From Heyndrickxia ginsengihumi (GTDB taxonomy: Bacteria; Bacillota; Bacilli; Bacillales; Bacillaceae_C), in NCBI RefSeq assembly GCF_011008565.1, contig NZ_JAAIWK010000006.1:62001-126000 (forward strand): 64,000 bases of DNA. The letters run 5' to 3'. The position numbers and the translations under genes are program-made. The stretch's first letter is position 1, and the number at the start of each line of letters is the position of its first letter. Below, piece after piece: positions 23,129 through 36,186 of this stretch. The notes under the pieces are model-generated. The model had not been told where the DNA came from, searched no databases, and saw nothing but the letters and a program-made list of their open reading frames with translations.

Positions 23129-24316
23129 TTAATTTTTTGTTAATATTCCATCTTTGATAAATAACTGCCGCGGAAGAGAGGCAAATGTTTCACACCCATT
23201 TTCAGTTACTCGTAATGCTTCACTCGCTTCAAAGCCATATTGGTCTAACCAAACACCCGGAATGAGGTGGAAAGTCATATTTGGCTGTAAAATTGTTTTA
23301 TCTCCTTTTCTGATGCTCGCTGTATGCTCACCCCAATCAGGAGGATAATTCAAGCCCATTGCGTAGCCAATACGCGAATCTTTAACAATACCGCTTTTTT
23401 CAATTGTCTTTCTCCAAGTTTCCTCAATTTCTTCACATGCAATACCAGGCTTAATCATATCAAGACAAGCATTTAGCCCTTCAACTACTACATCCGAAAG
23501 TGTTTTAATCTCCTCTGAAGGTTTTCCGATATTAACCGTTCTAGCAAGCGGTGAATGATAGCGTTTATAGCAACCTGCCAATTCTAAAATAACGGTATCC
23601 CCTTTTTTATAACGTTCATCTGTCCATGTTAAATGCGGAGTAGATGTTTTTTCGCCTGATGGCAGCAGCGGTACAATTGCTGGATAATCACCGCCGAACT
23701 CTGGAGTTCCTTTAATCTGAGTATGGAAAATTTCTGCTGCGACATCACATTCACGTACACCTTCACCGATTAATTCGATACCTTTCATCATCGCTTTTTC
23801 AACGATCTTCGCAGCACGCTTCATATACTCAATTTCCGTGTCAGACTTCACAAGACGAACCCAGTTCACTAACAGTGTTGCATCCTTAAGTGATGCATTT
23901 GGTAATCCTTTTTTCAGTTGTTCATAACATTTAGCTGTAAAATAGTAGTTCTCCATTTCAACACCGATTGTGCGGTTATCTTGGCCAATTTGTTTTAAAA
24001 TATCAGCTACAAAATCCATCGGATGCTTCGTATTCGATTGAACATAGTCATCTGGGTAAGGAATTATATTTTCGTGATAAAGCCATGTCGTAACCTTCGC
24101 ACCATTTGCATCCTGGCCACGGCCGATCCAAATCGGTTGTTCTTCATCGATCATAATAATGAGCATTTGATGTACGTAAAAAGACCATCCATCATAACCA
24201 GATAAATAATTCATATTTGCTGGGTCTGTAACAAGTAATACATCGATCCCTTGTTTTGACATCCGTTCTTTTGTTTTATAAATTCTTTCTTTATATTCAG
24301 CTGTTCCAAATGCCAT
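23129..24316 (-). CDS. doeA: ectoine hydrolase (EutD/DoeA)
   Basis: This 395-aa pita-bread-fold hydrolase opens the ectoine ring to N-acetyl-2,4-diaminobutyrate in the cytoplasm. Diagnostic stretches are DPANMNYLSGYDGWSFYVHQ, IWIGRGQDANGAK, YPDDYVQSNTKHPMDF and IGVEMENYYFTAKCYEQL, all nearly as in known DoeA. The metal ligands of M24 aminopeptidases are missing, as in creatinase. Start chosen at the ATG at 24316, 8 nt after AGGAGG; a preceding ATG is only 2 nt away from it. First gene of a six-gene operon (doeA, eutC, gamma-lyase, M20D deacetylase, homoserine dehydrogenase, aldehyde dehydrogenase). Confidence 0.93.
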   Translation of the reverse strand: MAFGTAEYKERIYKTKERMSKQGIDVLLVTDPANMNYLSGYDGWSFYVHQMLIIMIDEEQPIWIGRGQDANGAKVTTWLYHENIIPYPDDYVQSNTKHPMDFVADILKQIGQDNRTIGVEMENYYFTAKCYEQLKKGLPNASLKDATLLVNWVRLVKSDTEIEYMKRAAKIVEKAMMKGIELIGEGVRECDVAAEIFHTQIKGTPEFGGDYPAIVPLLPSGEKTSTPHLTWTDERYKKGDTVILELAGCYKRYHSPLARTVNIGKPSEEIKTLSDVVVEGLNACLDMIKPGIACEEIEETWRKTIEKSGIVKDSRIGYAMGLNYPPDWGEHTASIRKGDKTILQPNMTFHLIPGVWLDQYGFEASEALRVTENGCETFASLPRQLFIKDGILTKN

Positions 24317-24618
24317 GAGCATTGCCTCCTATTCGTTTTGGTCACGACTTATTTGTAAAAACTTTGTTAAATTTTATATTTTCATTATAGTAAATTACGT
24401 TAAATACAATCATCCGTAAAAATGTAAGAAATTTTAAAGTATTTTTAGTCAGAATTTAATAATTTGTTAAAATAATTAACAAAAATAGGTTGTCTAAAAA
24501 GTCTTCGAAACTCTTTATAGACAACCTATAATCAATGCTGCATCGTTCTACATATAAATTACTATATTTTTTAGACAAATATAGATAGCAGAACGTTACT
24601 TATCTCACTTTTAATAAG
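24317..24618. other. doeA upstream region and terminator of the first PucR gene
   Basis: An imperfect stem at 24486-24501 / 24523-24538 (GGTTGTCTAAAAAG with CTTTATAGACAACC) ends the minus-strand PucR gene. Between it and doeA lie AT-rich promoter DNA, an AAAATGTAAGAA motif at 24419-24430 (also found as a palindrome at 28967-29004), and ATTACGTTA at 24394-24402, whose complement occurs upstream of eutB. These are candidate PucR contacts. Confidence 0.5.
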
Positions 24619-26319
24619 TTATTTTGCTTTAGCTAGCCCCATTTTCCATGTTTTAATACTTAAGTCTAACAAAAATAAATCATCTGTATCATTTAAAGAA
24701 AGTCCAGTTAATGCTTCAATCTTTCTTAATCGATATAATAATGACTGTCTATGTAAATTAAGCATTCTCGCAGTCTTACTTACATTTCTATGGCAGTCAT
24801 TATAGGCACTAAAGGTATCGATTAAATCCATATGATGCTGCTCGTCATATCGAATCAAAGGTTCAATAGTAGATAAAATGACAGTCTTCATCTCGTTATT
24901 CTTTGCTAGATTTAGCAACAAACGATCAACCTGTGTATGCTCGTACATCATACGGTAACCGATTCCTTTTTTGCTTCTGCCAATTTCTAAGGCAACTTTT
25001 GCATTTTCATAACTTTTATGAAATCCATCTAATGTATTCAGTGGATTACTAATCCCCCATGAAATGACAACTTCCGGGATTAAGTTTCGTAAACGCCTTT
25101 CAACAAGATCCAAAAAGTCAGATGGATTTACATTTCCTTTATCTCCAGAGATCTCCAGAAAAATAAGTAATCTTTCTTCCTGGTATGTCAACATGACCTC
25201 TCTCTTAAGAGATTGGGCTGCATATAAGATTTCTTCCTCAATATAACGAATCATGTTATCGAGCCAATTTCCAAATGTTGCATAATCATGTTTTCTTTTT
25301 TGGAAAAGAGTCTTTAAATTTTCTGCAAACCCCACAATACATACATATGGAACTTTAAGATTATAGCCTAATAATTTAGCTCTTGAATTTGCCTGATTCC
25401 AATTATGAATATCGCCTTTAGCAAGTTCCTGTACAAAATCACTGCGAAGAGACATTTTCGTGTTCTCTATCGCGTTTTTCCGCGAAAGCCAAAGTGCGAT
25501 TGTTGTTGAAGAATGTTCTAAAACATTGATTCGGTACTGTGTTAAGAAATCATTTATTGTTATATGTGGTGGTAACATCACAATTAGATAACCTTGAGCA
25601 TCACCTAGCCCTTGTAAAATGGGCATTTGCACAATAATTTGTTCATCAATTTCAAAGATTTGGAACTTACTAAACATCGGATCGTGCATAGCAACAGATG
25701 ATGGACTCTTTATTGGGGAATTTTCTCGCATCATAAGGAATTTCCATTGATCAATGAAACTTTGCCGATGACTATTTTGATCAAGCATGACCCCTTTTCG
25801 ATCAATCAGCATAATCGGGCAGCCAATTTGCTTTTGAATAAACCTTGAAATTGTATTAATATCACTATTTTTTAAGATTAACTTTAAAAGCTCTTGCTGG
25901 ACTTGCTCAGACCTTTCGCGATCTTTATATTGAATACCATTTAGCTCCTTCATTACATCTTCAATAATATTCGCGAAACGGACCTCCCAAGGAATTTCAA
26001 TGATGACAAAATTTTTCTCCTCCGCTAACGCAATCACTTCTTGGGGAATTTGAAATATATGCCTTCCTAAAGCAATCATTAAAGCTGATGCTTCAGATTC
26101 TATAATATCTTGAACAAATTTTTTAAATAATTCAAGATCCTGCCCGCAGCCAATCGCCGTACTCAAAACAGCTTCATTTTTGCGGACAAAATTTTCAACT
26201 GGCATTTCAATAACTGAGATCCATTGAACATACCGTTGGTCAAGAAATTTTTTCCCGGTTCTCACCCTAGCACTTTCCATTATCTCAAATGTTAGAACGT
26301 CGTTTAATGTTAACGTCAT
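24619..26319 (-). CDS. PucR-family transcriptional regulator (copy 1, ectoine island)
   Basis: This 566-aa protein starts at the ATG at 26319 after AAGGGGG; the upstream frame extension has no site. The N-terminal PucR ligand domain (about 10-130) includes PVENFVRKNEAVLSTAIGC. The middle is a GGDEF-like CdaR region (about 290-430). The C-terminal HTH_30 has NVSKTARMLNLHRQSLLYRL (about 500-520). Relatives control purine or GABA catabolism. Here it sits between eutB and doeA, all on one strand, and is the obvious regulator. Proteobacterial ectoine clusters instead use the MocR-type EnuR. Confidence 0.87.
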   Translation of the reverse strand: MTLTLNDVLTFEIMESARVRTGKKFLDQRYVQWISVIEMPVENFVRKNEAVLSTAIGCGQDLELFKKFVQDIIESEASALMIALGRHIFQIPQEVIALAEEKNFVIIEIPWEVRFANIIEDVMKELNGIQYKDRERSEQVQQELLKLILKNSDINTISRFIQKQIGCPIMLIDRKGVMLDQNSHRQSFIDQWKFLMMRENSPIKSPSSVAMHDPMFSKFQIFEIDEQIIVQMPILQGLGDAQGYLIVMLPPHITINDFLTQYRINVLEHSSTTIALWLSRKNAIENTKMSLRSDFVQELAKGDIHNWNQANSRAKLLGYNLKVPYVCIVGFAENLKTLFQKRKHDYATFGNWLDNMIRYIEEEILYAAQSLKREVMLTYQEERLLIFLEISGDKGNVNPSDFLDLVERRLRNLIPEVVISWGISNPLNTLDGFHKSYENAKVALEIGRSKKGIGYRMMYEHTQVDRLLLNLAKNNEMKTVILSTIEPLIRYDEQHHMDLIDTFSAYNDCHRNVSKTARMLNLHRQSLLYRLRKIEALTGLSLNDTDDLFLLDLSIKTWKMGLAKAK

Positions 26320-26466
26320 GTTGTCCCCCTTGCAAGAAAGATTCAAATCATTGAAAAAAAACAAAAGATATAGATGAGCCGATATCCAGACATTAAACGA
26401 ACATGTAAGCAATGCTCCCAATGAAATCATAAAAATTTCAATCTTTTAGAATAGCTACCATTCTTT

Positions 26467-27465
26467 TCAATTTTGGTATTGTTGAATAACTTGGACTAAT
26501 ACAGATAGATCTACATTTTGGCCGCTAATAATAATTGCAACTGCACCATCTTGATGAGAAATTTTATTTTCCAAAACTGCTGCGACTCCCGTGGCTGCTG
26601 CTCCTTCAATGATTAATCTGTGTTTATCCATCATAAAAGCCATACTGTTCGCAATTTCTTTCTCTGGAATTAAGATGACGTCATCCATATATTGCTTTAC
26701 CATTCGAAATGTATATTTATTATCTAATCCAATCCCGCCTAGTAAACTATCTGCGAGGGTATCCTGTTCTGGCAATGCTACTGGTCTTCCAGCCCTTAAG
26801 CTTTCATACATAACAGCTGCTTTTTCCATTGAGACACCAGTAACTCGGACATCCGGAGTACTTGACTTTAAAGCCAGCCCGATTCCAGACAGCAGTCCAC
26901 CTCCCGAAAGTGGAACAATTACATTCGAAAGGTTTGGTACATCTTCTAATAGTTCTAAACCAATTGTTCCCTGGCCAGCAATGATATCGGGGTCATCAAA
27001 CGGCTGAATAACCGTTAGGCCTCTCTCTCTCTCTAATTCATAACAGCGCTTTCCGGCGTCATCCTGGCTATCACCATAAATCTCAATATTGGCGCCTAAT
27101 CTTTTCAACGAATCTACTTTTGCCTTTGGAACTCGATTAGAAATACAAACAGTGGCATCAATGCCAAGCTTTTTTGCGACATATGCAACAGCCATCCCAT
27201 GATTACCTGTTGAATAAGTCGCGACCCCTCTTTTCTTTTCCTCGTCACTTAAACTTAAAATTTTATTTGCGGCACCTCTAACTTTAAACGCACCAATCTC
27301 ATGAATATTCTCAAGCTTTAAAAAAACCGGGCGTCCAAGTTTTTCTGACAGTACTAGGGACTGAAGAATTGGAGTTTTATTGACAATAGATGCAATTCTT
27401 TTCCTTGCTTCCCAAACATGACGAATGGTTACCTCATTTGTTTGATTAGCTGCTAATTTACTCAT
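26467..27465 (-). CDS. eutB: threonine-dehydratase-family PLP enzyme, EutB (hydroxyectoine utilisation)
   Basis: This 332-aa fold-type II PLP enzyme has the PLP Lys in EIGAFKVRGA near residue 60, the substrate loop STGNHGMAVAYVAKKLG, and the phosphate cup SGGGLLSG. It has no ACT regulatory domain, unlike biosynthetic IlvA. Similarity to EutB together with doeA and eutC in the same island supports a role in removing the hydroxyl of hydroxyectoine-derived 3-hydroxy compounds by dehydration. It is transcribed separately from doeA, with a GGAGGGG site. A catabolic threonine or hydroxyaspartate dehydratase is the alternative. Confidence 0.82.
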   Translation of the reverse strand: MSKLAANQTNEVTIRHVWEARKRIASIVNKTPILQSLVLSEKLGRPVFLKLENIHEIGAFKVRGAANKILSLSDEEKKRGVATYSTGNHGMAVAYVAKKLGIDATVCISNRVPKAKVDSLKRLGANIEIYGDSQDDAGKRCYELERERGLTVIQPFDDPDIIAGQGTIGLELLEDVPNLSNVIVPLSGGGLLSGIGLALKSSTPDVRVTGVSMEKAAVMYESLRAGRPVALPEQDTLADSLLGGIGLDNKYTFRMVKQYMDDVILIPEKEIANSMAFMMDKHRLIIEGAAATGVAAVLENKISHQDGAVAIIISGQNVDLSVLVQVIQQYQN

Positions 27466-27731
27466 TTCTACCCCTCCTTATTCTATATAAATAACTAAAA
27501 AACCTTTTATAAAATGGACTCTCACTTTCTCTCAATTATTTAATTTGATCATTTATTAATATGTTATTTTTTATAACATCAAATGTAACGTAATATATCG
27601 AAAGCATATACTTTATCGTATTTTTTGTCAATGTAAAATATTCAGATATATCTATTAACAATGCGCATTTTTTCTTTTATGTTCTAAAAAATGAATACAA
27701 CTAGCCATTTATCACTACATTTATATTTTCA

Positions 27732-28868
27732 TTATAATTTTTGAAAACGCACTGGATCAAATAGCGTAATATCATGATTTGTTTTACCTTTTATCACAAG
27801 ATCCGAAAGGATTTCACCGATTACGCTGCAAAATTTAAATCCATGGCCGGAAAAACCGCCTGCAATTGCGACATTATCATAATTTGGATGTTTTCCAAGC
27901 ACAAAATGTCCATCAGGTGTATTCGTATAAAAACACGTATCAATTGTAACGTCATTTATATTTAAATCTGGAAATCTTTCAGCAACTAATCGTTGAATTG
28001 GCGCTATTTCCTCTGAAGAGACCTCCCGATCTAGTTCATCAGCAGTTCCAATTAATCCCCCTTGATGAAAGGCAACTTTTGTTCCTTCACCGTGGAACCC
28101 AGGCATACCGTAAATATTTAAATCATTTGTGTAATGCCAGCAAAAGATTGGAAATTGATCAGGATTGAAAATTTCAGGTTTATTCATGGCTTGAAACCAC
28201 GTAGGTACCTTACGTTGGACTTCGAGCGGAATCGTAAAACCGAATAAGTCCGGGTTCCACGCTCCTGCTGAAATCACGAGCTTTTCTGCTTTATAGATTC
28301 CTTTTTCTGTATATACCGTGATCCCGCCACCTTCTTGACCCCACTTTAACACTCGTTCATCTGTTTTGATTTCAAGTCCTTCAGATATGGCTATTTTTAA
28401 GCAAGCTTCAATACAAGCTTCCGGAAAAAGAACACCTGCCGTTTTCTCATAAACTGCAACCTCATCTTCCGCGAGATAAAATGCAGGAAAACGTTTAGCC
28501 ATTTCCTTCGCAGACAGCATCTCATATGGTAAATTGTATTGTTTTGCACTTGTAATCGTCCCTTGAACAATTTCACAATTCTCCGGACCTATCATTACTC
28601 CGCCAATTTCAGCGAGTAGGTCTTTTCCCGACTCTTCCTCTAATCTACGCCATAATGCATGTGCTCTTTGTGCAAGCGGCACATAAGAGGCACCCTCGAG
28701 ATAGGCTTCTCTAAAAATCCGGGTATGACCATGTGAAGAACCAAACTGATGAGGCGGCTGAAAGCGATCAATCCCCAAAACTCGCAACCCTTTTTTCATT
28801 AAATGATAGGCAGCAGCACTTCCCATGCCTCCGAGTCCAATAACAATTACATCATAAGTCTTATTCAT
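27732..28868 (-). CDS. monomeric sarcosine oxidase / N-methyl-amino-acid oxidase
   Basis: This 378-aa flavoprotein opens with the FAD motif VIVIGLGGMGSAAAYHL. The covalent-flavin Cys312 lies in CFYTNTPDGHF, as in MSOX/SoxA and MTOX. GFSGHGFKFCSVIGEI near the C-terminus and the FGSSHGHTRIFREAY loop support the monomeric class. It demethylates sarcosine (or another N-methyl amino acid) to glycine, formaldehyde and H2O2. Divergently transcribed from a creatinase-like gene 233 bp away; creatinase makes sarcosine, so the two form a plausible creatine-to-glycine module. Confidence 0.87.
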   Translation of the reverse strand: MNKTYDVIVIGLGGMGSAAAYHLMKKGLRVLGIDRFQPPHQFGSSHGHTRIFREAYLEGASYVPLAQRAHALWRRLEEESGKDLLAEIGGVMIGPENCEIVQGTITSAKQYNLPYEMLSAKEMAKRFPAFYLAEDEVAVYEKTAGVLFPEACIEACLKIAISEGLEIKTDERVLKWGQEGGGITVYTEKGIYKAEKLVISAGAWNPDLFGFTIPLEVQRKVPTWFQAMNKPEIFNPDQFPIFCWHYTNDLNIYGMPGFHGEGTKVAFHQGGLIGTADELDREVSSEEIAPIQRLVAERFPDLNINDVTIDTCFYTNTPDGHFVLGKHPNYDNVAIAGGFSGHGFKFCSVIGEILSDLVIKGKTNHDITLFDPVRFQKL

Positions 28869-28966
28869 CCTTTTCCTCTCCTTTTTTACAATTACTTGTG
28901 AAATACTTCTCTAGCTTGTTTATTATTAAATAACATAAATCAACTTCATTTACACATCAATCATTT

Positions 28967-29004
28967 AAAATGTAAGAAAACTCCTTTCTTTATTCTTACA
29001 TTTT
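28967..29004. promoter_or_regulatory. 12-bp perfect inverted repeat between divergent soxA-like and creatinase-like genes
   Basis: AAAATGTAAGAA at 28967-28978 pairs with TTCTTACATTTT at 28993-29004 around 14 nt. One arm recurs upstream of doeA (24419-24430). The location between divergent starts suggests an operator rather than a terminator. Confidence 0.5.
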
Positions 29005-29101
29005 GCGTAATAGAATCCTATAAAACAAGTAAATATAATTTAACTAATTTCAAAGTCTTCCAAATTTGAAAGATAAACATAACTATTAAGGAGGCATCTG
29101 G

Positions 29102-30271
29102 ATGAGAATAGCTTCACCAATATTCACAGCCGAAGAAATTTGTCGGCGCCAATCCGCAGTTATTAATAAATTAAACGAAGAGGATTGCTTTATCGCACTT
29201 TCATTCCATAATTCTTATTATTTGTCTGGTTTACCAATGCTGCAATGGGGGAGATTTGCGGCAACTATTCTTTTCAAAGATGGCAGACACGTCCTGATTA
29301 TTCCTGAATTTGAAACCGGAGCAGCCGCAATCGAATCTCCAATTACTGAAATTCACACTTATCGCGATTCAGACGGCCCTACCCATACAAAGGTTGTTCA
29401 ACTTATTGCCAAAACATTGAAAGAACGTGAAGTAAAAATAGCTGGTGTTGAGGCAGAAGGAATCCCTGCATCCTTTCAGACATTGCTCACCAAACAAATG
29501 CCAAATGTTGTCTTTGTTGATCGCACAGATGCTGTAAACCTTACGCGTTTCATCAGTTCTGATGAGGAATTTTGCTACATTCAGGAAGCATGCCGGCTTA
29601 CAGATATCGGGATGCACAAAGTGGTAGAAATGATAAAGAAAGGCAGCACTGAGATTGAAGTGTCCCGCGCAGCATGTAACGCTATGAAGGATGCAGCAAA
29701 AACATCATACCCGCTAAACGTATCCTGCTATCTTCAACAAGGACAACGAAGCGATCAGTGTCATGCGTTGCCAGATGATTTGTTTATCAATCCCGGAAAT
29801 ATGGTAGAGGTCGTGATTGAAGCAGAGGTCGCGTATTACCAGGCCTCACTAGAGCGACCAATCTTAGTCGGCGATGTAAGCACAGAGATTCATCAAGCTT
29901 GTTTAATTGCAATCGAAGCTTTTAATGCCGGATTTTCAGTGGCAAAGCCAGGAGGTCAATTCGCCAATATTGATAAAGCTGCACGAGCAGTGTTTCATGC
30001 GAATGGTTTTGATCAAATCCCGAATGGATCAGGACTTATGAGAGGAATTGTCCATCATACAGGTGGCAGAAGTGAACTGGGTGAAGTACGTCACTACAAC
30101 ACTCGTATTCTTGAACCTGGTATGGTCCTTACTATCGAACCATGGGCAATTATTCCCGAAGTTGGCTCACCTAGAGAATGTGACACAATACTCATTACCC
30201 AAAATGGCGCAGAGATCATTAATACATTTCCAAGAGGTATAACGCAAGTAGCAAATTCTAATGCGTTATAA
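29102..30271 (+). CDS. creatinase-like M24-fold amidinohydrolase
   Basis: This 389-aa pita-bread-fold protein has lost the metal ligands of aminopeptidases: no Asp pair, and Cys360 where the last Glu would be. It keeps creatinase-type residues. His221 in QRSDQCHALP aligns with the catalytic His of creatinase, and Glu251 in YYQASLERP and Glu346 in TIEPWA align with substrate-holding residues. The N-terminal FTAEEICRRQSAV and C-terminal GAEIINTFPRG also resemble creatinase. Creatinase splits creatine to sarcosine and urea, and the divergent sarcosine oxidase fits that product. Ectoine hydrolase has the same fold, so another cyclic or linear amidine cannot be excluded. AAGGAGGCATCTGG precedes the ATG. 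Confidence 0.72.
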   Translation: MRIASPIFTAEEICRRQSAVINKLNEEDCFIALSFHNSYYLSGLPMLQWGRFAATILFKDGRHVLIIPEFETGAAAIESPITEIHTYRDSDGPTHTKVVQLIAKTLKEREVKIAGVEAEGIPASFQTLLTKQMPNVVFVDRTDAVNLTRFISSDEEFCYIQEACRLTDIGMHKVVEMIKKGSTEIEVSRAACNAMKDAAKTSYPLNVSCYLQQGQRSDQCHALPDDLFINPGNMVEVVIEAEVAYYQASLERPILVGDVSTEIHQACLIAIEAFNAGFSVAKPGGQFANIDKAARAVFHANGFDQIPNGSGLMRGIVHHTGGRSELGEVRHYNTRILEPGMVLTIEPWAIIPEVGSPRECDTILITQNGAEIINTFPRGITQVANSNAL

Positions 30272-30866
30272 ATAGGGATGCTGTCATCCTTTACTTTGAT
30301 GATATATCAACGGCCAGAATCAATATAGCCATTAAGCAAAAGGTCAACATATTTTAAGTCACTAATACTGCTATAAAGGTTAAAACCTCGATTAAATCTA
30401 AAAAGTAATCGAGGTTTTCATTATGCTTATAAATTTCTTGAATTGTCTTTTTCTACTAACAGAAGGATGAGAACTACAGTTTATAACAATTGATTAATAC
30501 TCTTCATTTAAATCGTCCTTGTTTATTGTAACTGTTAGATTAAGTATTTTGACCTGAATATTAACATTTTGGTTTACAATTCCGGTGGATGCTGACGGAA
30601 GGACCGCGATTTTAGAATTTCTAATCCATATCTATTTATACCTAACAAAAATCTTTTTTACTTGTTGATTGTTAACAACTTTTAATGTAAATCCATCAAA
30701 AGATTTTCGGTGTTTGATTGGTTACTCTTACTCCCCTTTTGCTGATGAAAAGCTCATCCATCCATCGCTACCATTAAGAAGCTCTAATTTTAACTCTCCC
30801 CTCTTAATGCACATAGCAGAAATAGAATAACCAATATGGTTGAATTCAACCAGTGATGGAGAAATA
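30272..30866. other. 595-bp gap: terminator, otherwise nothing recognised
   Basis: A 12-bp perfect stem (AAAACCTCGATT at 30382-30393 with AATCGAGGTTTT at 30407-30418) ends the creatinase-like transcript. The remainder is AT-rich. A 65-codon minus-strand frame at 30728-30925 overlaps the end of the PucR gene and has no ribosome site. Its peptide was not recognised and it may be a remnant. Confidence 0.5.
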
Positions 30867-32441
30867 TTACTGAACACCTGAAATGGTCCATAGTTTTTGA
30901 CAGAGTTGTAGAAGAAAACGGTCATCAGGTTCGGACAAGGACTTCCCTGTTAATGATTCTATTTTCTGCAAACGATAGAGCAACGATTGACGCTGCAATG
31001 CTAGCGCCCGTGCAGTTTGACTAATATTTCCCTGATAATTGATATAGTACGAAAGGGTACGAAAAAGATCTAAACCTCTTTCTCGATTATATGTTATTAA
31101 TGGTTCAATCGTTTGTCGTACTAGATCATCAGCTAGTTTATTTTCAGATAAATGAGATAATAATCGAAATATACTTGTATCTGAAGAAGTATTTCTTGTT
31201 CCCGGTCCTTTCTGTCTTCTGCCAATTTCTAATGCAATTTTGGCATCTTTATAATTGTGAGGAAACGCGTACACATCTGTTAAACGTTCACTAATCCCCC
31301 ATGAAAAATAAGGTAAGCAATAGATCGCTAATTTTTCCTCAAAGACATCAATAAACTCGTTATACAGGCTAACTGCACTGTTTAAAAATATGCTTAAATA
31401 TCCAGATTGAAATGTACTTATCATTTCGATCCTTAATGATCGTGCACAATCGAAAGCTATTTTGCTAATCTGACTTTCAAACGATGAGTATTTTTGTTCA
31501 CAGTCCTCCATTTCCGCAAAACCTACAATACAAAAATACTTTACGGATTTATCTATGTTAAATCGATTGACTTGCTTTTCAATTTTTTTCCAATCATTAT
31601 ACTTTCCTTCTACTAATGTCTTTATGAACTCTGTTTTTTCTTTGTTCTCTTGCTCTATTAATATCCGGTCTTTCTTAAACCATAAACGCAGCGCAATAGT
31701 AATTTTTTCTAAAACAAACCAGTCTATTAATTCAAAAGAAAGCATAGCAGTTTCTAGAATAATAATACCTATGTAATGATCATAAATATGAAACGGAAAA
31801 ACTTGTGCTCGTGTATTCCATATTGTGCAAACCACTGAAGGCTTGTCTATTTGCACTTGATCATATTGGAGATAATTTGTTGGATGCTCCTGGTTTAAAG
31901 AAAAAAAAGCTGCAGCAAATTCCTCCTGTAATAGATAGACTTGCATACCAGTTTCATCTTCTATCAACTTTAAAGCGCGGCTCAACGAATCTCCTTCAAA
32001 ATAAAGCTGCAATAATCGCCTTTGAAGCGAATCCGCTTTATCCGCAAAATACTGTTTTTGCTTGTAAACACCTTCCGTTACAATTTTAATAATATCTGAG
32101 AAACGGATTTTCCACGGTAAAAGAATAATTGGGAATTCATGTTTCCTTGCGAACTTTAAAATAGACTCTGGAATCGTTGTGACGTTTCTCCCTATCGCAA
32201 TTGCTATCGCAGCAGCATGTGAGGCATAGATAGCTTTAATAAAAGATTTAAAAGTATCATTTTCTTCACAGCCAATCGCTGTTGTTAGTACAATTTCGTT
32301 TTCTCTTATTAATCGTTCAACAGGAGTTTCAATAACTGAGATAGACTCTATCGGCTGTGTAAGCATCGCCTTATTACTAAATAACAGTTTAGCTTCTTTT
32401 AATAATGGATGAGATAAAAATTGTTCAATTGTAAAATGCAT
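30867..32441 (-). CDS. PucR-family transcriptional regulator (copy 2, next to the Ehu transporter)
   Basis: This 524-aa protein starts at the ATG at 32441 after TGGAGGA. It has the same architecture as the copy at 24619: PucR N-domain with PVERLIRENEIVLTTAIGC, a middle CdaR/GGDEF-like region ending SWGISERL, and HTH_30 with NISQTARALALQRQSLLYRL. The two HTH segments are very close to each other, so the paralogs may recognise related sites. It is divergent from the ehu operon and downstream of the creatinase-like gene, so it probably controls uptake and/or the creatine module. Confidence 0.85.
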   Translation of the reverse strand: MHFTIEQFLSHPLLKEAKLLFSNKAMLTQPIESISVIETPVERLIRENEIVLTTAIGCEENDTFKSFIKAIYASHAAAIAIAIGRNVTTIPESILKFARKHEFPIILLPWKIRFSDIIKIVTEGVYKQKQYFADKADSLQRRLLQLYFEGDSLSRALKLIEDETGMQVYLLQEEFAAAFFSLNQEHPTNYLQYDQVQIDKPSVVCTIWNTRAQVFPFHIYDHYIGIIILETAMLSFELIDWFVLEKITIALRLWFKKDRILIEQENKEKTEFIKTLVEGKYNDWKKIEKQVNRFNIDKSVKYFCIVGFAEMEDCEQKYSSFESQISKIAFDCARSLRIEMISTFQSGYLSIFLNSAVSLYNEFIDVFEEKLAIYCLPYFSWGISERLTDVYAFPHNYKDAKIALEIGRRQKGPGTRNTSSDTSIFRLLSHLSENKLADDLVRQTIEPLITYNRERGLDLFRTLSYYINYQGNISQTARALALQRQSLLYRLQKIESLTGKSLSEPDDRFLLQLCQKLWTISGVQ

Positions 32442-33032
32442 ATTCCATTCCTCCACGATAACTATACATGATTGCTTAATATGTCGATTACTTCCCGACT
32501 TTTCTTAAAACACTTCAGACAGCCAGCACGAAAAGTAAGCACCAATTACATGTTATAAAACATGACATTTCTCTAAGCATCTCTGTACATATATACAGAC
32601 CTTTATAGCAAGTAATAAGGTACAGAAAAATGAAATAATTCTATTTTATTATACATTCCATACTATGTCTATGCTAAAAGTGACAGAATATTTAGATGAA
32701 TATTCTTACAAATTGGCTGATAGTTTTCTAAATGATTGATCTTTAAAATAAAAGTATAAGATATAACACAGTTTGTTATAAAACTTAACAAGAAGGAAGG
32801 TGTTCATTTGAGGCAATATTGATAATCGAAAAAGACATGGGATATTGAAAGAATATGGATAATTAAATGAAAAGAATTTATTAAAAATGAAATCGTCCAA
32901 AAGACATCCAACTAAAATTGTATTTTTTGTTATACGGAATGTTTGATTCATAAATTTTCAGTGTATAAAGAGAGTTTGAAATCAATAGAGTGATATGTTT
33001 TTCACAAAATAAAAATAAAAAGGGTGATGAAT
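32442..33032. other. 591-bp divergent control region upstream of ehuB
   Basis: Unusually long spacer between the PucR gene and ehuB. It contains two TGTTATAAAAC-like elements (32551-32561 and 32775-32785), the first extended as ACATGTTATAAAACATG, and TCTGTACATATATACAGA at 32582-32599. A GAAGGAAGGTG stretch near 32793 is followed only by a very short frame. A decayed gene or a leader is possible; no protein was recognised. Confidence 0.45.
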
Positions 33033-33907
33033 ATGAAAAAAATTATGATGGTTGTTATGGTTGGTTTATTAGCAATCGGCATTATGGGATGCGGGAAATC
33101 AGAAAGTACATCTGCTTCTCCAAAACAAACAACTTTTCAAAAAGCCAAAAAAGATAAACGAGTTGTCGTCGGATTTGCCAATGAAAAGCCATATGCTTAT
33201 GCTACTTCAGATGGAAAATTAACAGGAGAATCAGTTGAAGTTGCCCGTGTTATTTTAAAACGACTTGGCATAAAAGAAATGGATGGAGTGTTAACGGAAT
33301 TTGGCTCTCTTATTCCCGGACTGAAAGCTGACCGTTTTGACATGATCACTGCAGGTATGTTTATCACTCCTGAACGAGCGAATGAAGTAGATTTTGCAAA
33401 CCCAGATTATAGTATAGGAGAAGCAATCGCAGTAAAAAAAGGAAATCCATATCATATTAAAGTTATGAAGATATCAAGAACAATAGCGAGGTAAAAGTGG
33501 GCGTTATTGCCGGAACTGCCGAAGCAAATTATGTAAAAGAATCCGGTGTTAATGCTTCACAAATTACAGTCATATCGGATAATCCAAGCGCATTGTCAGC
33601 ACTCCAGTCTGGTCGAGTTGATGTAATCACGATGACTGGTCCAGCACTTCGTTCATTATTAGACACGGCGAAATCTAATAATGTAGAAAAAGTTAAAGAT
33701 TTTAAACAGCCTGTAATTAATGGTAAAAGTGTGAAGGGGTATGGAGCGACTGTATTTAGAAAACAGGATGACGACTTCCGAGAAGCCTTTAATAAAGAAC
33801 TTGAAAAAATGAAAAAAGATGGTGAATTACTAAAAATACTTAAGAAATACGGATTTACCGAGAATGAACTTCCAGGGGATGTTACGACTGAACAGTTAAT
33901 CAAATAG
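33033..33907 (+). pseudogene. ehuB: ectoine/hydroxyectoine ABC transporter substrate-binding protein EhuB, frameshifted
   Basis: Two frames together make one lipoprotein. The first (33033 to 33494) has a signal with lipobox IMGC and binding-domain lobe 1 with EFGSLIPGLKADRFDMITAG, very like EhuB. The second frame continues from about 33462 to 33907 with VGVIAGTAEANYVKE and lobe 2. Adding one A to the AAA at 33459-33461 restores a continuous reading, HIKSYEDIKNNSEVKVGV, exactly as the family expects there. So this is a single-base deletion, or a sequencing error in a short A-run. Everything else in the gene is well kept, implying a recent event or an artefact. If real, the importer lacks its binding protein. 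Confidence 0.85.
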
Positions 33908-33971
33908 ATGAGGGGAAATATTCCCCCTCATCTATTTAGAAGTTTAAGAAAATCGGGGAGTGAAATCATTT

Positions 33972-34622
33972 ATGTTTTCAAATCTTGACATTATAAAAGG
34001 ACTATTAACAGGATTATCCATCACTTTACAAGTTTTAGTATATTCATCAATTTTTGCATTAGTAGTTTCATTTCTCTTTGGCTTTTTAAGTTTGGCGAAA
34101 TGGCCGCTCATTAGATTGATTTCTAGTCTTTATATAGAAGTGTTTAGAGGGACATCACTTCTTGTACAATTGTTTTGGTTTTACTTTGGTCTTCCAATTT
34201 TAGGAATTAAACTACCCGCCATGTTTGTCGGTGTACTGGCACTTGGCTTAGGTTACGGCGCATATGGCGCAGTCGTGGTTAAAAGTGCCCTTTCGGCTGT
34301 TCCAAAAGGGCAGACAGAAGCAGCGATCTCTTTAAATATGACTCCTTATCGAAGAATGCGATCTGTCATCCTGCCACAGGCTTTCCTCATTATGTTACCT
34401 ACATTTAGTAATTTGGTAATAGAACTTCTAAAAGGGACATCTCTCGTTTCCCTTGTTACACTTTCAGATTTAACTTTTCAAGCAATGACAATGAGAGCAT
34501 CGACTATGGAATCAACAAAAATTTTCACTTATTTATTGATCATCTATTTTCTAATTGCATATCCAATTACAATCGGATTTCGGCGCCTTGAGAAAAGACT
34601 ATCTATTGGGAGGGGTAACTAA
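33972..34622 (+). CDS. ehuC: ectoine/hydroxyectoine-type ABC transporter permease EhuC
   Basis: This 216-aa HisM-type amino-acid permease has about five membrane helices and a coupling loop ALSAVPKGQTEAAISLNMTPYRRMR, the EAA motif that contacts the ATPase. The frame also allows a GTG at 33960, which overlaps the GGGGAG ribosome site, so the ATG at 33972 is preferred. The stop overlaps the ehuD start (TAATG). Assigned to Ehu because the operon begins with an EhuB homologue and lies beside ectoine catabolism; polar amino-acid permeases look alike. Confidence 0.8.
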   Translation: MFSNLDIIKGLLTGLSITLQVLVYSSIFALVVSFLFGFLSLAKWPLIRLISSLYIEVFRGTSLLVQLFWFYFGLPILGIKLPAMFVGVLALGLGYGAYGAVVVKSALSAVPKGQTEAAISLNMTPYRRMRSVILPQAFLIMLPTFSNLVIELLKGTSLVSLVTLSDLTFQAMTMRASTMESTKIFTYLLIIYFLIAYPITIGFRRLEKRLSIGRGN

Positions 34623-35314
34623 TGTGGAGTTGGCATTTCGCTGTTTCAATTTTACCGCAGCTTTTAGAGGCTATGCTTATAACAGTCAAGGCAACCGTCG
34701 TAGGATTTATACTAGCTATTATCCTTGGACTATGTTGGACTATTTGCCGCCGCTCATCCTTTAACTTATTGAATGGTGCAGTTCTGGCTATTGTTGTTTT
34801 CGTAAGAAGCACCCCTTTGCTTGTGCAGCTTTATTTCATCTTTTTTGTATTTCCTAACTTTGGCATCACCCTATCACCATTTTTAGCAGGAGTGATCGGA
34901 CTTGGATTGCATTACAGCGCCTACTTGACAGAGGTTTTTCGAACAGGAATCGATTCAATCCCGAAAGGACAATGGGAGGCAGCAACCGCATTAAATTTTT
35001 CAAGAAGAAAAATGTGGACAAACATAATCTTACCACAAGCAATACCACCGATTATTCCAATGGTTGGCAATTACTTCATCGGGATGTTTAAAGATACTCC
35101 GCTGTTGTCTGCAATTACTTTAGTTGAAATGGTGCAGTCAGCGAGACTGATCGGCGCAGAATCATTCCGCTATTTAGAAGCCTTTACAGATGTCGGCCTA
35201 ATTTTCCTAGTTCTTAGTTATCCGTCATCACTTGTATTTCGTTACATCTCAAGACGTATCAATTACCGCTACGATCGTTCTTATTCCATTAAAAATAAGG
35301 AGGTTGCAAAATGA
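34622..35314 (+). CDS. ehuD: ectoine/hydroxyectoine-type ABC transporter permease EhuD
   Basis: This 230-aa second permease of the importer has about five helices and the EAA loop GIDSIPKGQWEAATALNFSRRKMW. A GGGAGGGGTAACTA site lies in the end of ehuC. The ATG overlaps the ehuC stop by one base and the end overlaps ehuA by 4 nt, so the three are translationally coupled. Confidence 0.8.
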   Translation: MWSWHFAVSILPQLLEAMLITVKATVVGFILAIILGLCWTICRRSSFNLLNGAVLAIVVFVRSTPLLVQLYFIFFVFPNFGITLSPFLAGVIGLGLHYSAYLTEVFRTGIDSIPKGQWEAATALNFSRRKMWTNIILPQAIPPIIPMVGNYFIGMFKDTPLLSAITLVEMVQSARLIGAESFRYLEAFTDVGLIFLVLSYPSSLVFRYISRRINYRYDRSYSIKNKEVAK

Positions 35315-36186
35315 AGAATGGTGACGATCAATATCAATTAAAAAAAGAACCTTACGTCAAATATAGAAATATTGGTATGAAATTCGGCAGCACTGAAGTA
35401 TTAAAAAATATCAATTTTGATATTTTCCTAGGAGAAAAGGTCGCAATGATTGGTCCCAGTGGTTCTGGGAAAACAACGCTAGCACGGATGTTAATGACAT
35501 TAGAAAAACCAACAAGTGGCACAATTGAAATTAGTGGTGAACAGCTGTGGCATTACAAAGTAAAAGACAAATTGGTAGAAGCTAATGAAAAACACTTACG
35601 CAAAGTTCGCGGTCAAATTGGAATGGTTTTTCAACACTATAATTTGTTTCCACATATGACGATTTTAAGAAATGTAATGGAAGCACAAGTACATGTATTA
35701 GGATTAACGAAAAGTGAAGCCGAACAACACGCAAAAAAAATGCTTGATAAAGTCGGTCTCGGACATAAGTGTAATGCCTATCCTACTCAATTATCAGGCG
35801 GACAGCAGCAACGCGCGGCAATGGCACGGTCATTAGTGATGAAGCCAAAAATTATGTTATTTGATGAAGTGACATCTGCTTTAGATCCAGAATTGGTCGG
35901 AGAGGTATTAGAAGTAATCAAAGATATTGCTGCGGAGTATGAGATGGCAATGCTGCTTATTACTCATGAAATGGCCTTTGCTCGTGACATTGCTGATCGT
36001 GTTGTCTTCATGGCTGATGGGAACATTGTCGAAGAAGGTCCTCCTGAACAGCTTTTTTTACATCCGCAACACAAACGTACAATCGAATTTTTAAGCCGAT
36101 TTTCCTCACAAATTAATTCAGAGAGAGCTTATAGTTATAGAAGTCTTCTCCATTCATCTAATCAGGAAAATGCTCAACATTCTTGA
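35311..36186 (+). CDS. ehuA: ectoine/hydroxyectoine-type ABC transporter ATPase EhuA
   Basis: This 291-aa HisP/GlnQ-type ATPase has Walker A GPSGSGKTT, signature LSGGQQQRAAMARSL, Walker B IMLFDEV, D-loop SALDPE and switch His in LLITHEM. AAGGAGGTTGCAAA precedes the ATG. It carries about 30 extra residues at the C-terminus relative to the usual 240-260 aa, rich in Ser and without a known domain. Last gene before a strong terminator. Confidence 0.87.
   Translation: MKNGDDQYQLKKEPYVKYRNIGMKFGSTEVLKNINFDIFLGEKVAMIGPSGSGKTTLARMLMTLEKPTSGTIEISGEQLWHYKVKDKLVEANEKHLRKVRGQIGMVFQHYNLFPHMTILRNVMEAQVHVLGLTKSEAEQHAKKMLDKVGLGHKCNAYPTQLSGGQQQRAAMARSLVMKPKIMLFDEVTSALDPELVGEVLEVIKDIAAEYEMAMLLITHEMAFARDIADRVVFMADGNIVEEGPPEQLFLHPQHKRTIEFLSRFSSQINSERAYSYRSLLHSSNQENAQHS

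Follow-up and report, generated by a model that had tools for sequence, protein, structure and literature searches.

Why should genes for a creatinase-like protein and a sarcosine oxidase-like flavoenzyme lie back to back in the middle of an ectoine-catabolism island? The question is raised by a 64,000-nucleotide stretch of Heyndrickxia ginsengihumi DNA (assembly GCF_011008565.1, contig NZ_JAAIWK010000006.1, positions 62,001 to 126,000; hereafter the window, always at its full length). Two divergent genes, here called SOX and CRE, occupy positions 27732-30271 of it, exactly where an original prediction made from the letters alone had put them, and both open reading frames (ORFs) are intact, with 233 bases between their starts. 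The answer that we favour is that CRE and SOX would together be a small catabolic unit, turned on along with ectoine breakdown, CRE acting on creatine or on a related carboxylate with an N-methylated guanidino or amidino group; we judge this reading evenly balanced between right and wrong. The pair is a new variation on the creatinase-sarcosine oxidase theme, and three lines of evidence bear on it: the active site of CRE, the kind of flavoenzyme that SOX is, and an upstream element that both genes share with the ectoine hydrolase gene doeA.

CRE keeps a creatinase-type set of active-site residues

CRE consists of a Creatinase_N and a Peptidase_M24 domain, and its best match in the PDB is creatinase 1CHM (E 3.7e-27). 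In the alignment, its residues W49-G50-R51, H221, E251, R323 and E346 fall on F62-G63-R64, H232, E262, R335 and E358 of creatinase, numbered as we take that enzyme to be numbered; we assume that His232, Glu262 and Glu358 are catalytic and that Arg64 and Arg335 bind the carboxylate. At four of the five metal-ligand positions of M24 proteins CRE has other residues, and the fifth is Glu346, the equivalent of Glu358. CRE had been described as an M24-fold protein that has shed its metal ligands and kept the catalytic His221 and two glutamates; the alignment bears this out (the glutamates are Glu251 and Glu346) and adds Arg51 and Arg323, equivalent to Arg64 and Arg335 and absent from that description, so that a creatinase-type active site is supported. 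The full set Arg64/His232/Glu262/Arg335/Glu358 is present in only 8 of 47 aligned M24 rows, namely CRE, its relative L036, four creatinases (1CHM and L110-L112) and two proteins from rhizobial plasmids, L108 and L109; DoeA does not have it. A structure model made from two sequences was too poor for comparison (mean predicted local distance difference test score, pLDDT, 55.8).

The M24 tree was built from 29 chosen rows, a few of each kind, most X-Pro-like and some DoeA rows among the 47 having been omitted. In it CRE and L036 pair with support 100/100, within a 12-row creatinase-like clade (98/94) that they share with the canonical creatinases and the L108 group. The tree places CRE in this creatinase-like superclade, on a branch of its own. 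Forcing CRE and L036 into one clade with the canonical creatinases costs 3.6 log units (p 0.12) and forcing CRE together with the L108 group costs 3.7 (p 0.10), neither being rejected; these groups, the ones besides DoeA and X-Pro, were named after the tree was seen. A place inside DoeA or the X-Pro peptidases had been named beforehand as the outcome that would tell against a creatinase-like protein, and both groupings are rejected: the cost is 69.8 log units with DoeA (p of the approximately unbiased test, p-AU, 1.3e-8) and 39.4 with the X-Pro peptidases (p-AU 0.0015).

CRE is rare. At E 1e-42 no match was found outside its own genome, either in 396 genomes of the order or in 397 of the phylum, which rules it out as a common gene of either, and viral contigs held no relative. 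The one relative found, L036 (42% identity), comes from a metagenome-assembled genome, found in a scan of genome contigs that reaches close relatives only; 42 other genomes of that genome's phylum gave none at E 1e-50. In L036 the gene order is a PotD-type substrate-binding protein and transporter genes, then the CRE relative, then a cut DoeA-like M24 gene.

Other M24 proteins are of interest alongside. L108 and L109 form a further creatinase-like branch with the complete five-residue set, beside branched-chain-type ATP-binding cassette (ABC) transporters, and L174, a 49% relative in that branch, sits in the same genome as L036. In four genomes (G006, G041, G122 and G086; loci L168-L171), two to three tandem metal-free M24 genes with an LER motif and without Arg335 lie 3' of two ABC ATPase genes.

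SOX is a flavoenzyme of the sarcosine oxidase type

The partner had been taken for a monomeric sarcosine oxidase (MSOX) with a covalent-flavin motif at Cys312; alignment and PDB matches support an enzyme of the sarcosine oxidase type. Cys312 is aligned to the cysteine of the MSOX motif, and R53, Y253, K264, H268, C312 and K345 of SOX correspond to R52, Y254, K265, H269, C315 and K348 of MSOX; with residue numbers and roles as we presume them to be, the flavin-linking Cys and the substrate-site Arg, Lys, His and Tyr are all kept. SOX has a Cys where Met245 of MSOX, if we place it rightly, would be. Its best PDB matches are sarcosine oxidases (E 9e-84 to 2e-79), N-methyl-tryptophan oxidase following at 3e-61, and it scores 321 bits against TIGR01377 (soxA_mon), under the cut-off of 480.

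Of 298 other genomes of the order, a single one, G204, gave a close relative of SOX at E 1e-125 (64%), and in a 47-row tree the two are a sister pair (100/97). The group around them also contains the SOX proteins of glycine-betaine demethylation clusters (91/85), where the expected substrate is sarcosine. A second SOX in the H. ginsengihumi genome was not found at E 1e-20. The same genome has no dimethylglycine-dehydrogenase ortholog, giving two partial matches of 25-26%, and sarcosine from that step is therefore unlikely; SOX as a step of glycine-betaine demethylation in this genome is thereby ruled out.

What SOX genes keep company with was read at 31 Bacillota places, which are all those at E 1e-75 among 249 genomes, our own included. 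At three of them, namely the window, G204 and G179, the stretch that was read contains an M24 gene. G204 has the same arrangement as the window, with SOX divergent from a metal-free M24 gene. In G179, a relative of the same order, the locus L196 runs through transporter-like genes, a creatininase-like gene, a creatinase (69% to 1CHM) and SOX, and is a canonical creatinine-use cluster. Three further places (L178-L180) are glycine-betaine demethylation clusters. Among plasmid SOX loci, 1 of the 13 read has an M24 gene and five (L123, L132, L133, L135 and L136) have a dimethylglycine-dehydrogenase-like gene by annotation or match; on a haloarchaeal plasmid of Natrinema zhouii (L125:3603-6119), an M24 gene of the L016 type stands directly upstream of the SOX gene. 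As a separate observation, a Sinorhizobium mexicanum plasmid (L130) has genes for an amidase and an M24 protein at a distance of about 5 kb from ehuA and ehuB.

An upstream element links the pair to doeA

A repeat search of the window yielded a 12-base element, AAAATGTAAGAA/TTCTTACATTTT, with the derived pattern TTCWTACANTTT. Its three exact copies in the window lie 108, 110 and 109 bases before doeA, SOX and CRE, respectively, each oriented towards the gene that it precedes, and the SOX and CRE copies form an inverted repeat with 14 bases between them. The window has four occurrences of TTCWTACANTTT against 0.25 expected, a count reached in none of 100 shuffles; the fourth lies inside an ORF. 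In relatives, counted over 40 other DoeA places plus the window, a match to TTCTTACANTTT with at most one mismatch occurs within 260 bases of doeA at 22 of 41 places, as against 0.8% of shuffled regions, and at 29 of the 40 other places the element lies at -80 to -140 with no more than two mismatches. Outside the window, TTCWTACANTTT occurs once in 31 SOX loci (505 kb; G204, Natrinema and 29 others), and that one copy is 88 bases before the G204 SOX gene. Across the H. ginsengihumi genome the exact 12-mer is found seven times and the control, the pattern written backwards, five times; three of the seven are the copies at doeA, SOX and CRE, three lie within ORFs, and one is intergenic, 76 bases before a 224-residue ORF and in the opposite orientation.

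If a TTCWTACANTTT about 85-140 bases before a gene is taken as the mark of the ectoine regulon, SOX and CRE would both belong to it, and since they share their element with doeA the pair is probably under joint control with ectoine catabolism. The proposal that the pair is linked to the island is thus supported, and sharpened from mere location to a common upstream element. What the element shows is linkage to the ectoine genes, not a substrate.

A 20-base weight matrix built from relatives, flanks included, gives 21.7 bits for doeA (largest value in 30 shuffles, 17.9) and 14.4 bits for G204. It is weak for SOX and CRE, so the claim made for the element rests on the 12-base core and its positions. 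Compared by eye, the CRE flank TTCTTACATTTTGCGTAATAG resembles the flank of doeA in the relative L077, TTCTTACACTTTGTGTAATAG.

What the pair may do, and what weighs against it

In the scheme that we propose, a PucR-type regulator of the island would act through the element on doeA, SOX and CRE. CRE would hydrolyse creatine, or a similar carboxylate that bears an N-methylated guanidino or amidino group, in a metal-free reaction to urea and sarcosine or a similar amino acid, its two arginines holding the carboxylate, its two glutamates the guanidinium, and His221 driving the attack of water, if the roles that we ascribe to the creatinase residues apply. SOX would then oxidise sarcosine to glycine, formaldehyde and hydrogen peroxide. 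In this way a single control would serve the scavenging of two kinds of nitrogen-rich osmolyte. Judged from sequence, creatine is the likeliest substrate.

Several observations pull the other way, and they are of two kinds. As to the enzymes: (i) CRE is only 27% identical to creatinase, and in the 29-row tree the canonical creatinases and the L108 group join without it (90/87). (ii) SOX falls outside the 27-row clade (100/99) that unites MSOX, Escherichia coli SolA and the L196 SOX, and NCBIfam names it an N-methyl-L-tryptophan oxidase (NF008425, an equivalog profile; 462.6 bits, cut-off 257). (iii) The M24 protein beside the sister SOX in G204 is DoeA-like (NF038259 389 bits, cut-off 575; grouped with DoeA at 99/95) and does not have the creatinase set. 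(iv) The 8.8-kb contig of L036 holds no SOX gene, the neighbours being the PotD-type transporter and the cut DoeA-like gene. (v) One creatininase query found no match in the window at E 1e-12, the search being confined to the window. As to the element: it was picked from the repeats of the window first and tested in relatives afterwards; with one mismatch to AAAATGTAAGAA allowed, the window count of four is matched by 8 of 100 shuffles; a close match before doeA is absent from 19 of the 41 islands; and the 20-base matrix scores the SOX copy at 9.43 bits, ninth in the window, where shuffles average 8.7 hits, the CRE copy not being among the 14 matrix matches listed.

The original prediction had spoken of a creatine-to-glycine module. 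Of this, a creatinase-type active site and a sarcosine oxidase-type partner stand; creatine as the substrate is not established: in the tree CRE does not join the canonical creatinases, SOX stays apart from the clade of MSOX and L196, and no creatininase was matched in the window.

The alternative that survives best has the pair acting on an ectoine-related compound, for instance a derivative of ectoine or hydroxyectoine or some other cyclic amidine with a carboxylate group, with SOX oxidising the resulting secondary amine and creatine not being the natural substrate. The DoeA-like partner in G204, where a metal-free M24 gene of that type is arranged divergently with the sister SOX, and the DoeA-like gene adjoining the CRE relative in L036 keep such a substrate in play, as do an element common to doeA and SOX in two genomes and the separate branch of CRE. 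We nevertheless consider it rather unlikely: the full creatinase set is in CRE and not in DoeA, the ectoine intermediates known to us include no N-methylated or otherwise secondary amino acid such as SOX enzymes accept, and the pair is found at none of the 40 other DoeA places, so that ectoine can be used without it. Less probable again is that SOX serves imported free sarcosine or other N-methyl amino acids while CRE is an unrelated neighbour. Most SOX genes do lack an M24 gene nearby (28 of 31 Bacillota loci and 12 of 13 plasmid loci), but two observations speak against this account: the genes are divergent and have paired elements 110 and 109 bases before their starts, and the sister SOX of G204 has the same layout, there with another M24. 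Finally, CRE as an X-Pro dipeptidase or a DoeA-type ectoine hydrolase is rejected on the strength of trees, residues and profile scores and strikes us as highly improbable, since its best NCBIfam matches, PepQ_Arch (104 bits) and DoeA_2 (NF038259, 73 bits), are far under their cut-offs of 630 and 575, as is TIGR02993 (59.8 of 613 bits), four of five metal-ligand positions are lost, and both groupings are rejected.

The surrounding ectoine island

The ectoine island said to surround the pair is real, with eutB, eutC, doeA, a deacetylase, PucR and ehu-type ABC genes (Table 1). The pair does lie between eutB and the ehu transporter, with the added detail that a second PucR-type gene (30867-32456) intervenes before ehu. 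The ehu names rest on L077, where genes in the same order match at 66-74%, and on the naming in the original prediction.

Table 1. Positions in the window of the gene pair, its neighbours and the upstream element
Feature	Position	Strand	Remarks
doeA/eutD	23129..24322	-	ectoine hydrolase type; TIGR02993 533.6 bits, cut-off 613
Element TTCTTACATTTT	24419..24430	-	108 bases 5' of doeA start; conserved before doeA in relatives
PucR-type regulator 1	24619..26430	-	conserved in island
eutB	26467..27465	-	NF005680 446.9 bits, cut-off 413
SOX	27732..28868	-	378 residues; monomeric sarcosine oxidase/SolA-type flavin adenine dinucleotide (FAD) enzyme, by profiles, PDB matches, residues and tree
Element TTCTTACATTTT	28967..28978	-	110 bases 5' of SOX start
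Element TTCTTACATTTT	28993..29004	+	109 bases 5' of CRE start
CRE	29102..30271	+	389 residues; creatinase-like metal-free M24-fold protein, by domains, PDB match, residues and tree
PucR-type regulator 2	30867..32456	-	between CRE and ehu genes
Weaker element TTCTTACAAATT	32703..32714	+	PucR2-ehuB gap; not a match to TTCWTACANTTT
ehuB (two reading frames), ehuC, ehuD, ehuA	33024..36186	+	ABC transporter genes

The island itself is widespread. A DoeA match at E 1e-90 is present in 118 of 397 genomes of the order, our own included, and the 40 other DoeA places that were read, taken mainly from the head of the match list, come from 38 of the 117 other genomes with a match. Many of these places share eutB, eutC and genes for a pyridoxal-phosphate enzyme, a deacetylase, a homoserine-dehydrogenase-like protein, an aldehyde dehydrogenase and PucR; CRE or SOX was found at none of the 40 at E 1e-8, and the pair is thus ruled out as a conserved or standard component.

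CRE tops the 16 measured genes in G+C (42.6%) and, with 32.8% at third codon positions (GC3), is second to ehuD there; SOX has 40.5% and 29.0%. These figures are not decisive as to a foreign base composition of the pair. Scans for sigma-70 promoters and terminators over 27400-33200 gave no excess above shuffles. Two palindromes were seen, ATGTTATTTTTTATAACAT at 27561-27579 in the eutB-SOX gap, of a type not seen in the islands of 12 relatives, and ATGTTATAAAACAT at 32550-32563 in the PucR2-ehuB gap. ehuB (33024-33900) is split into two reading frames near 33490, which may reflect slippage, a genuine break or an error in sequencing; ehuC, ehuD and ehuA are intact.

Implications

If our reading is right, a creatine-type pathway has been tied into ectoine control, the element is a concrete candidate operator, and there is a hint at the role of the little-studied PucR-type regulators in Gram-positive ectoine clusters. 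The results also carry a warning: among the M24 proteins that annotation labels Xaa-Pro peptidases there are several branches of metal-free hydrolases. A bolder extension, which we offer tentatively and think more likely wrong than right, is that CRE founds a new metal-free M24 branch of amidine or guanidine hydrolases and with SOX gives the catabolism of ectoine-type osmolytes a side arm not described before, that TTCWTACANTTT defines the regulon concerned in the order, and that SOX enzymes of this lineage have taken on different M24 hydrolases, a creatinase-like one here and a DoeA-like one in G204, as suppliers of N-alkyl amino acids.

Comparison with known systems

In the open-licence literature, searched by title or the start of the abstract, we found no paper describing the CRE-SOX pair beside ectoine genes. 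The available part of PMC13188858, which in 2026 described the ectoine-catabolism cluster of Bacillota (pucR-eutBCD-atf, abgB-thrA-adh), has the word creatinase nowhere and sarcosine once, in a reference title, with no mention of the pair; the same text states that a part for PucR regulators in ectoine catabolism is yet to be demonstrated. Neither word occurs in the main text of PMC5924519, as far as it is available.

Creatinase genes beside MSOX are recorded, in the accessible part of PMC4941409, for Arthrobacter TE1826 and Bacillus B-0618. The pair in the window is like these creatininase-creatinase-MSOX clusters, whose order is also that of L196 in G179, and like creatinase 1CHM, in its metal-ligand-free M24 protein, its five key residues and its nearby SOX-type gene. 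It differs from them in that CRE has 27% identity, where the L196 creatinase has 69%, and sits on a separate branch, in that its SOX is of a different lineage, and in that there is no creatininase match in the window and the pair is tied to ectoine genes by location and element. With MSOX and SolA, SOX has in common the FAD family, the cysteine of the flavin bond and the substrate-site residues, whereas its lineage is its own, shared with the G204 gene (100/97) and outside the clade of MSOX and SolA. The M24 proteins of the L108/L109 type, annotated as members of the Xaa-Pro peptidase family on their rhizobial plasmids, have the same five residues at 27% identity, but a branched-chain-type ABC transporter adjoins them and no SOX lies within the stretches shown. 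Finally, as far as the available text of PMC13188858 goes, the island in the window has the genes of the Bacillota ectoine cluster and matches the published Bacilli gene order, the CRE-SOX pair being what it has in addition.

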